Position numbers and translations under genes: made by a program
Origin: Hydrogenophaga sp. IBVHS1
Lineage (GTDB): Bacteria > Pseudomonadota > Gammaproteobacteria > Burkholderiales > Burkholderiaceae_C
Direction: 5' to 3'
Assembly: GCF_002127265.1 (NCBI RefSeq)
Contig: NZ_NFUU01000001.1
Location: 2,736,040 to 2,800,039, forward strand
DNA length: 64,000 nucleotides
The notes under the pieces: model-generated
The model's database searches: none
What the model was told of the DNA's origin: nothing
Seen by the model: the letters and a program-made list of their open reading frames with translations, nothing else
Shown here: positions 30,499 through 32,907 of the stretch, piece by piece
How the letters are laid out: each line of letters opens with the position of its first letter
Position numbering within the stretch: the stretch's first letter is position 1

Positions 30499-31566
30499 AT
30501 GAAAATCGCAGTTCTTCCGGGTGACGGCATCGGCACCGAAATCGTGGCCGAGGCGGTCCGGGTTCTCAACGCACTCGACCTGCCCTTCGAGATGGAATCC
30601 GCACTGGTGGGCGGCGCGGCGTACGAGGCCTACGGCCACCCCCTGCCCGAGTCCACCTTGAAGCTGGCCATGGACGCCGACGCCGTGCTGTTTGGCGCCG
30701 TGGGCGACTGGAAGTACGACAAGCTCGACCGCCCCCTGCGCCCCGAGCAGGCCATATTGGGCTTGCGCAAACACATGGGCCTGTTCGCCAACTTCCGCCC
30801 CGCCATCTGCTACCCCGAGCTGGTCGGCGCCTCCAGCCTCAAGCCCGAGATCATTGCGGGGCTGGACATCCTCATCATCCGCGAGCTCACCGGCGACATC
30901 TATTTCGGCCAGCCGCGCGGCCGGCGCACCGCCACCGATGGTCACTTCCCCGGTGCCGAAGAGGCGTTCGACACCATGCGCTACAGCAAGCCGGAGATCG
31001 AGCGCATTGCCCACGTGGCTTTTCAGGCCGCGCGCAAACGCAGCAAGAAGGTCACCAGCGTGGACAAGGCCAACGTGCTGGAGACCTTCCAGTTCTGGAA
31101 GGATGTGGTCACCGAGGTTCATCAGCAGTACCCGGATGTCGAACTCGATCACATGTATGTGGACAACGCGGCGATGCAACTGGTGCGCGCACCCAAGAAG
31201 TTCGACGTCGTCGTCACGGGCAACATGTTTGGCGACATCCTCTCTGACGAAGCCTCCATGCTCACCGGCTCCATCGGCATGCTGCCCTCGGCTTCGCTGA
31301 ACACGAAGAACCAGGGCCTTTACGAACCCAGCCATGGCAGCGCCCCCGACATCGCGGGCAAGGGCATTGCCAACCCGCTCGCCACCATCATGAGTGCGGC
31401 CATGATGCTGCGCTTCAGCCTGAACCAGGAAGCCGCCGCGCAGCGCATCGAGGCGGCGGTGCAGAAGGTGCTGGCCCAGGGTCTGCGCACGCCCGACATC
31501 CACAGCGAGGGCACCACGAAGGTGGGCACCATCGAAATGGGTGACGCCGTGTTGCGCGCGCTCTGA
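30499..31566 (+). CDS. leuB: 3-isopropylmalate dehydrogenase
   Basis: A 355-residue NAD-dependent decarboxylating dehydrogenase that makes the precursor 2-oxoisocaproate. Recognisable are [15 protein letters not shown] at the start, [14 protein letters not shown], the catalytic Lys/Asp region [23 protein letters not shown] and [17 protein letters not shown]. Length is standard. There is no strong ribosome-binding site. It ends the leuCDB group; the region after it contains a leader-like small frame before asd. Confidence 0.97.
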
Positions 31567-31582
31567 GCTAGAATCTCCACCC

Positions 31583-31684
31583 ATGTTTGCCGCCCGCCTG
31601 TTCGACCTGAACCTCGCATCCACCGCCATGGTGGGTGTGGCCGCGCGCGCAATCTCCACCAAAACCACGACCATTAAGGGCTGA
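31583..31684 (+). CDS. Candidate leader peptide of asd (Thr/Ile/Lys-rich, 33 residues)
   Basis: A short frame starts with ATG 16 bp after the leuB stop. The N-terminal part reads MFAARLFDLNLASTAMVGVA and the last ten residues are ISTKTTTIKG followed by TGA. Four threonines, two isoleucines and two lysines in the final ten residues are end products of the aspartate pathway, in which asd, the next gene, catalyses the second step. This pattern recalls enteric thrL. A TAGAAT hexamer ends 8 bp before the ATG, with no good -35. No ribosome-binding site is obvious, so translation is not proven. Confidence 0.55.
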   Translation: MFAARLFDLNLASTAMVGVAARAISTKTTTIKG

Positions 31685-31758
31685 TCCAGCTCCGGAATCG
31701 TCGTGCGCCCTCCCTGGCCAGACGAGCCGGGGCAAACAGTCTGGTCTGCACTGTTTTT
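31666..31758 (+). promoter_or_regulatory. Possible attenuator region upstream of asd
   Basis: Several short complementary segments could compete: CACGAC within the Thr codons (31666-31671) with GTCGTG (31700-31705); TCGTC (31698-31702) with GACGA (31721-31725); CCAGAC (31718-31723) with GTCTGG (31739-31744); and AAACAGT (31734-31740) with ACTGTTT (31750-31756), the last followed by T residues like a weak terminator. The overlaps make the structures mutually exclusive in sequence. By eye the regulatory logic cannot be assigned and the terminator stem is AT-rich and weak. Confidence 0.4.
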
Positions 31759-31776
31759 AACTGAAAGGGCGTTCAA

Positions 31777-32907
31777 ATGAGCAAGTTGGTAGGCCTCGTA
31801 GGCTGGCGCGGCATGGTCGGTTCCGTGCTGATGGATCGCATGGCGGCGGAAAACGATTTCGACCTGATCGAACCGCTGTTCTTCTCCACCTCGAATGCCG
31901 GCGGCAAGGCCCCGGCCATGGCGAAAAACGAAACCACCCTGCAGGATGCGCACGACATTGCAGCCTTGGAGCGCTGCGACATCGTCATCACCGCCCAAGG
32001 CGGCGACTACACCAACGAGGTCTATCCCAAGCTGCGCGCTGCAGGCTGGAAGGGCCACTGGATCGACGCCGCGTCTGCGCTGCGCATGGAAAAAGACGCC
32101 GTCATCATTCTCGACCCGGTCAACCTGCCCGTGATCCAGAAGGCCCTCGCCAACGGCGGCAAAGACTGGATCGGGGGCAACTGCACCGTGAGCTGCATGC
32201 TCATGGGGGTGGGCGCTCTCTACAAGGCCGGCCTCGTGGAGTGGATGAGCACCCAGACCTACCAGGCTGCCTCAGGTGGCGGCGCACAGCACATGCGCGA
32301 GTTGCTCACGCAGTACGGCACGCTCAACGCCGAAGTGCGGGCTCTTCTGGACGATCCCAAGAGTGCCATCCTGGAGATCGATCGCAAGGTCATTGCGCGC
32401 CAGCGTGCCCTGAGCGAAGCCGAAACCGCCAATTTCGGTGTCCCGCTGGGTGGCTCTCTGATCCCCTGGATCGACAAGGACCTGGGCAACGGCATGTCCA
32501 AGGAAGAGTGGAAGGGCATGGCCGAGACCAACAAGATCCTCGGCATGGGCGAAGGCTTCGATTCGGCGGCCATTCCGGTGGACGGCTTCTGCGTTCGCGT
32601 GGGTGCCATGCGCTGCCACAGCCAGGCGCTCACTTTCAAGCTCAAGAAGGACGTGCTCGTGGCCGATATCGAGGCCATGATCGCCGCCGACAACGACTGG
32701 GTGAAGGTGGTGCCGAACACCAAGGAAGCCACGCTTCGGGATCTGACCCCAGTGGCAGTGACCGGCACCATGACCATCCCTGTGGGACGCGTGCGCAAGC
32801 TGGCGATGGGCCCGGAGTATGTGGGCGCATTCACCATCGGTGACCAGTTGCTCTGGGGCGCGGCCGAACCGCTGCGGCGGATGCTGCGCATCCTGCTGGA
32901 GTCCTGA
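31777..32907 (+). CDS. asd: Aspartate-semialdehyde dehydrogenase
   Basis: A 376-residue NADPH-dependent enzyme that reduces aspartyl phosphate to aspartate semialdehyde, the branch point to lysine, threonine, methionine and diaminopimelate. Visible features: [18 protein letters not shown] at the nucleotide site, the catalytic Cys in [12 protein letters not shown], and the His-containing [17 protein letters not shown]. The 370-residue Gram-negative class is matched. GAAAGGG lies before the ATG. It is preceded by the proposed leader and followed by fimV. Confidence 0.97.

Follow-up and report, generated by a model that had tools for sequence, protein, structure and literature searches.

The asd gene of Hydrogenophaga sp. 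IBVHS1 is preceded by a short open reading frame (ORF), which comparison with related sequences confirms as a conserved leader peptide. This leader quite probably serves as the sensor in an attenuator of asd that is ribosome-mediated and responds to the supply of threonine, lysine and isoleucine (Thr, Lys and Ile), with a read-out that, judging from folding models, is probably translational. The comparison establishes, at the sequence level, the leader itself, its amino acid content, a promoter-like box and, in the class to which the Hydrogenophaga locus belongs, two helices downstream. It is also likely that in dozens of loci the upstream enzyme LeuB gained a Thr/Lys/Ile(/Met) tail of 10–21 residues, by which the ribosome completing LeuB would sense the products of asd, and that the free and enzyme-tail forms were repeatedly exchanged.

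Background

The asd gene sits at the branch point from which lysine, threonine, methionine and isoleucine are made, as well as diaminopimelate, a precursor of the cell wall. An earlier note, made from the bare letters of a 64,000-nt stretch of the Hydrogenophaga genome (from here: the window), had pointed to a possible attenuator between leuB and asd and knew of none described at the asd gene of betaproteobacteria, though it allowed for one. In agreement with this, no attenuator, leader or other control of asd in these bacteria is described in the literature that we searched, most of it accessible without subscription to the journals.

Methods

The asd loci comprised the best 80 among the matches listed in one scan of genome contigs. 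Further loci came from 40 related genomes searched with the leader peptide and from asd searches in 200 genomes of the order, 150 of family f1, 100 of a second family (f32) and three of a third family (f14). Upstream regions taken from these numbered 120, to which 40 of the order list were added later; they were hand-picked, mostly one per genus. In total, 274 loci were examined; four lacked the asd motif (L093, L094, L095 and L249), leaving 270 that are not all independent, as the window recurs as L081 and as L096, and L081–L092 were chosen for holding the peptide.

Each locus was scored by the ORF ending 5–260 nt upstream of asd that had the most Thr, Lys and Ile (T/K/I) in its last 10 codons, and the same scan was run on the opposite strand as a control. 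Class A consists of free-standing leaders of the window's family (112 loci, 85 distinct tails), in class B the C-terminus of LeuB forms the tail (62 loci, 59 distinct tails) and class C consists of free-standing leaders of f32, the Burkholderia class (33 loci, 29 distinct tails). As LeuB tail we counted the residues beyond the conserved MG-x-AV motif. In the folding model, 13 nt were covered from the A-site, and pseudoknots and kinetics were ignored.

Results

A leader frame between leuB and asd

All features described here lie on the forward strand of the window. The gene leuB (30499..31566) encodes 3-isopropylmalate dehydrogenase (TIGR00169, E 2.8e-149) and asd (31777..32907), the gene proposed to be controlled, encodes aspartate-semialdehyde dehydrogenase (TIGR01745, E 4.8e-179). 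The 33-codon frame ending in ISTKTTTIKG that the earlier note had read between the two genes was borne out. It starts with the ATG at 31583, encodes MFAARLFDLNLASTAMVGVAARAISTKTTTIKG and is closed by the TGA at 31682–31684, the whole feature covering 31583..31684. The Ile, Thr and Lys codons of ISTKTTTIKG (31652..31681) are the proposed stall site. The LeuB protein of the window ends in ...GDAVLRAL and, in the tail comparison, lacks the T/K/I tail of relatives in which LeuB would itself be the leader. A PF01118 search of the window's own genome returned the asd match and one weak partial match on another contig.

No family matching the 33-aa peptide was found in NCBIfam (cut-off E 0.001) or in Pfam (cut-off E 10). 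Rfam searches of window positions 31300–32000 (E up to 10) gave no leader family, the thrL type included, and neither did those of six relatives at gathering scores. The exact coding pattern TKTTTIKG-stop, which variants escape, was found only in the window's own genome when 274 genomes of the class, three of them of the window's family, were scanned. At hom and dapA of this genome (one locus each) there was no Thr/Lys/Ile leader, the best score being 2/10.

Thr/Lys/Ile-rich ORF ends upstream of asd

The peptide search gave a match at E ≤ 10 in 14 of the 40 genomes, the window's own included, with 4.9e-10 as the best value in another genome. The alignment of relatives by which the earlier note had wanted the frame and its terminal codons to be checked was carried out, and the frame survived it: a tail of at least 6/10 T/K/I was present in 204 of the 270 asd loci, against 0/270 on the opposite strand. 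Three further loci scored 5/10 and 63 scored 4/10 or less, so that the scores form two groups of loci. Without the peptide-fetched loci and the repeat (L081–L092 and L096), 191 of 257 loci reached 6/10. Among the 95 loci of the window's family sampled by asd (L154–L248), 77 reached 6, 80 reached 5 and 15 did not; 12 of these 15 tail-less loci have a short leuB–asd gap. The 40 loci from the order list included one without the motif, two positives (L278 of the window's family and L284 of family f14) and 37 with 4/10 or less. In family f14, a T/K/I-rich leader occurs in 3/3 genomes, e.g. TTTIITKTVMKG and STTIITKKTKTTVLV. Records of Burkholderia cenocepacia and Caballeronia fit the f32 class, with tails of 9/10 and 6/10.

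The likeness to the Thr/Ile/Lys logic of enteric thrL that the earlier note had seen in the single frame extends to the relatives, as T/K/I-rich ORF ends stand before asd in three families whose surrounding leader sequences are unrelated. The amino acids of the tail are constant and their order is variable, as in TKTTTIKG, TKTITKG, TTTKTIKS and IKTITKTIP.

Two local arrangements were observed in addition. In one genus of f32 (L126–L132), asd lies 45–60 nt past leuB, LeuB has no T/K/I tail and there is no leader; the sensor is therefore absent from part of this family. In eight loci (L024, L041, L046, L048, L050, L057, L062 and L066) the leuB–asd gap measures about 900–1300 nt, with extra DNA between leuB and the leader. 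Leader and asd adjoin despite this extra DNA, and the unit therefore seems to be the leader plus asd.

The leader start

The earlier note had been correct in seeing no clear ribosome-binding site in front of the frame. A probable −10 box of a leader promoter, TAGAAT (31569..31574), is located just 8 nt upstream of the leader ATG, and the leader is, from its sequence context, probably read from a leaderless mRNA, which would explain the missing site. By eye there is no good −35 box, and a generic promoter scan found none; within 31400–31900, no sigma-70-like and no terminator-like site passed.

A −10-like box ends 6–10 nt before the start in 85/85 distinct class A leaders, with the form TACAAT in 66, and lies 6–8 nt before the start in 28/29 class C leaders. 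Because the box had helped to choose the leader start, a shuffle control was run. An ATG together with a box matching at least 5/6 letters was present in 84/85 class A leaders compared to 1/1700 shuffles, and in 9/29 class C leaders compared to 2/580 shuffles. The f14 leader in L284 carries an SD-like AGGAAG in place of the −10 box. The accessible text of PMC4603805 reports leaderless transcripts in Burkholderia cenocepacia that have a TA-rich motif immediately in front of them.

Upstream of the class A −10 box, several loci (L006, L015, L016, L023, L028 and L038) have an element of the type TGTCAG or CGTAAG, followed about 10 nt on by CAAGCC or similar. It forms a partial inverted repeat in some of them, matches no −35 consensus and may be a remnant of a leuB terminator or an operator.

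Two crossing helices downstream of the leader

The stop codon is followed by four strands in the order 2, 3a, 3b and 4. Strand 2 (S1a, 31689..31702) starts 4 nt past the stop codon and has strand 3b (S1b, GACGAGCCGGGGC, 31721..31733) as its partner in helix S1. Strand 3a (31705..31711) is the anti-Shine-Dalgarno sequence GCGCCCT; its partner in helix S2 is strand 4 (31766..31772), the asd Shine-Dalgarno (SD) region AGGGCGT, which would be buried by this pairing. Since this order makes the helices cross, S1 and S2 are either mutually exclusive or joined in a pseudoknot. Overlapping pairings, as announced by the earlier note, do exist. Strand 3b has the alternative of folding back onto the sequence preceding it. 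The same strand order can be drawn with other letters in classes B and C.

The fold of the window stretch had a z value of −1.53, and 13/200 shuffles were as good; this is only slightly better than the shuffles, so that fold energy in the window does not by itself prove structure. In class A (51 of 99 rows), 86.7% of the S1 and S2 cells were paired and 16 cells were changed on both sides (0/500 shuffles as high), with weaker measures giving 42/500 shuffles for pairs changed on both sides and 168/500 for further pair types. The class B alignment (54 of 58 rows) had 73.8% of cells paired (41/500 shuffles), 29 cells changed on both sides (7/500) and a score reached by 42/500. For class C (30 rows), the values were 96.6% paired cells and five pairs changed on both sides (0/500), all five from one row, L268. 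When pairing energies were compared with letter shuffles, at most 5/100 shuffles were as good as S1 in 51/51 class A, 48/54 class B and 3/30 class C rows, and as good as S2 in 18/51, 27/54 and 18/30 rows, respectively.

Strand 1 (31666..31671), with the sequence CACGAC within the Thr codons, could pair with GTCGTG at 31700–31705. A strand 1:2 pairing was rejected as a candidate, as it was not supported by covariation (86.6% of cells paired, 56/500 shuffles as high). Many class B rows have an added helix, GGACCCC:GGGGTCC or AAACCC:GGGTTT, for which covariation was judged by eye only and which is misaligned in A2. In the window (31680–31690) and in class A and B relatives, the stop codon may sit in a small hairpin, GCTGATCCAGC, which takes the form GAGCTAACAGCTC in class B rows; the letters GC preceding the leader stop are nearly fixed in the same set.

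Ribosome position, access to the asd Shine-Dalgarno sequence and termination

In the folding model, openness of the window's asd SD was about 0.6 as long as the A-site lay on any of codons −5 to −1, and 0.18 once it lay on the stop codon. Between codon −5 and the stop, openness dropped by more than 0.1 in 57/99 class A loci and rose in one, compared to 7 drops and 17 rises with shuffled spacers. The trend held for footprints of 10–19 nt (41 to 60 loci losing, 0 to 6 gaining). There was no net effect in the LeuB-fused class B (10/58 drop, 5 rise), and in class C none or the reverse (3/30 drop, 9 rise). These counts do not support one SD-opening mechanism shared by all three classes. The SD switch is therefore supported for the window's class only, given that classes B and C show no net drop on folding.

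From these patterns we infer ribosome stalling, the direction of control and a read-out at translation initiation rather than transcription. The leader would be translated from its own, probably leaderless, mRNA in the window and by the ribosome finishing LeuB in many relatives. When charged tRNA runs short for Thr, Lys or Ile, the ribosome would stall in the last 8–10 codons, strand 2 would be free to pair with 3b (S1), strand 3a would be held in the loop and the asd SD would stay open (asd ON). When the three amino acids are plentiful, a ribosome at the stop codon would cover strand 2, or at least much of it, since this strand begins 4 nt past the stop, and 3a would pair with the asd SD (S2; asd OFF).

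A possible alternative, to which we give clearly less credence, retains the same sensor and assigns the read-out to premature transcription termination, of a weak intrinsic or a Rho-dependent kind, in classes B and C at least. It is in these two classes that the SD-opening model fails; in the Burkholderia class, a 9-bp helix of very high stability lies about 8–15 nt upstream of the SD, and T-runs follow the hairpin in some LeuB-class loci (L001, L201 and L208). Against it speaks that the terminator which the earlier note had called weak is weak indeed: the window has a small hairpin ACAGT/ACTGT followed by TTTT (31736..31758), which did not pass the terminator scan and whose T-rich part is not kept in all relatives. 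The T-run is missing in some class A relatives (e.g. L034) and in the Burkholderia-class rows seen, and class A keeps the SD complementarity with both the GGGCG and the GGCGC forms of the SD (L183, L185, L197, L204 and L224). Under the folding model, the OFF state of the window is better explained by burial of the asd SD than by a terminator.

The LeuB C-terminus as a probable leader

The earlier note's account of a free-standing leader holds, but it overlooked the form in which the tail belongs to LeuB. All 62 class B loci have a LeuB tail of 10–21 residues, the T/K/I richness of which is by construction, because class B was defined by T/K/I in the tail. LeuB ends after 4–9 residues (VKALG and similar), with no long tail, in 155/155 other loci with a readable end, made up of 72/112 class A, 31/33 class C and 52/63 tail-less loci. 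Among the loci of the window's own family sampled by asd (L154–L248) with a readable LeuB end, a tail of at least 10 residues occurred in 44/56 with a leuB–asd gap below 150 nt and in 0/18 with a larger gap. The other 12 short-gap loci had neither tail nor leader according to the T/K/I scan.

A quickly built tree of asd comprised 90 rows, with 43 of its 87 inner branches open; on it, the LeuB-tail state needs seven changes, and strongly supported branches force at least three. The class A window is placed among class B Hydrogenophaga; a member of the same genus, G001, belongs to class B. If the asd tree follows the genomes, these changes mean that free and fused leaders replaced each other.

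Amino acid composition of the tails

In the last 10 codons of the three classes, Thr accounts for 33–43%, Ile for 17–27% and Lys for 18–21%, the last compared to 5–7% predicted from codon-position composition, in tails chosen for T/K/I; this choice of loci partly favours the composition result and the class B tail richness. Met was found at 7/590 positions of class B tails. Asn, which is made from aspartate by a route that does not pass through Asd, was present at 4/850, 1/590 and 0/290 positions in classes A, B and C, with about 10% predicted by codon-position composition. When LeuB tails were taken by length alone, Asn accounted for 3/425 residues and Thr, Lys and Ile together for 300/425.

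These figures bear on the idea that the A/C-rich ORF end is kept as unstructured RNA, for ribosome standby or protein binding, with the amino acids as a by-product. The nucleotide tract is indeed highly conserved in the window's class, as this idea would have it. However, Asn codons are almost absent from the tails, chosen as these were for T/K/I, the amino acids are kept by families that differ in nucleotide sequence, and the in-frame LeuB tail accompanies the short gaps (44/56) and not the others (0/18) in the window's family, which makes such a role very unlikely. Equally improbable, in our view, is a role of the peptide as a small functional protein or as an arrest peptide whose nascent chain senses a free metabolite. 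In the window's family there is partial conservation of the N-terminal MFAARPF-LN, but this half of the peptide differs from family to family and in class B is LeuB itself. The order in the tails varies freely, which is not known of arrest peptides.

Simple translational coupling or reinitiation from the leader to asd with no amino acid sensing, for which the position of the leader upstream of asd on what is probably one mRNA would speak, is the least credible explanation, as the stop-to-start distance of 69–155 nt (class medians 84–95) exceeds the 10–11 bp of the class discussed in the accessible text of PMC4833913 and the T/K/I bias is left unexplained.

Discussion

The leader as a proposed Thr/Lys/Ile sensor of asd has counterparts among known systems. 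The thrL-thrABC attenuator of enteric bacteria has a leader rich in Thr and Ile codons and alternative helices downstream. The asd leader is alike in that a Thr/Ile-rich leader stands before a gene of the same pathway with alternative helices following; it differs in the gene, in the use of Lys as well, in having no clear intrinsic terminator and in being probably leaderless, and no sequence kinship was shown. In the translational attenuators of ermC and cat, a stalled ribosome frees a buried SD, as is predicted for asd, but there the stalling is drug-induced and the genes confer resistance. To our knowledge, no leader peptide is known for the asd RNA motif of lactic acid bacteria (Rfam), which also precedes asd and was not matched in the window or in six relatives.

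According to the accessible text of PMC7298713, the leader ATG of trpL/rnTrpL in Sinorhizobium meliloti is the 5′ end of the transcript. An ATG-first leader would thus be shared with asd, where the leader is probably leaderless; trpL differs in responding to Trp and in using transcription attenuation. The LEU element before leuA of Actinobacteria, as presented in the available part of PMC1262725, combines a leader peptide with an alternative hairpin or pseudoknot involving the SD box. Leader peptide and alternative pairing of the SD box are common to both; in the LEU element, unlike at asd, the codons are those of Leu, the SD has the codon run itself as its partner and the phylum is another. 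Judging from the accessible parts of these sources, leaderless leader peptides and leaders with an SD pseudoknot are each already known, separately. The novelty of an enzyme tail as leader is the weaker claim, because the literature on enzyme tails was searched narrowly.

Of the features of an attenuator, the end-product codons are present at the asd leader, while no intrinsic terminator before asd passed the scan of the window stretch and the T-run is not conserved in the alignments. By analogy and on the folding model, the asd leader would follow thrL-type attenuation in its logic and ermC-type translational attenuation in its read-out, with full membership in neither.

A leader that covers several end products, is maybe leaderless and can be transferred to the C-terminus of an unrelated enzyme would broaden the notion of an attenuator. 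Surveys limited to short ORFs would overlook leaders that form the tail of an upstream gene. The free leader in the window and the LeuB tail in G001, within the same genus, provide natural paired designs.
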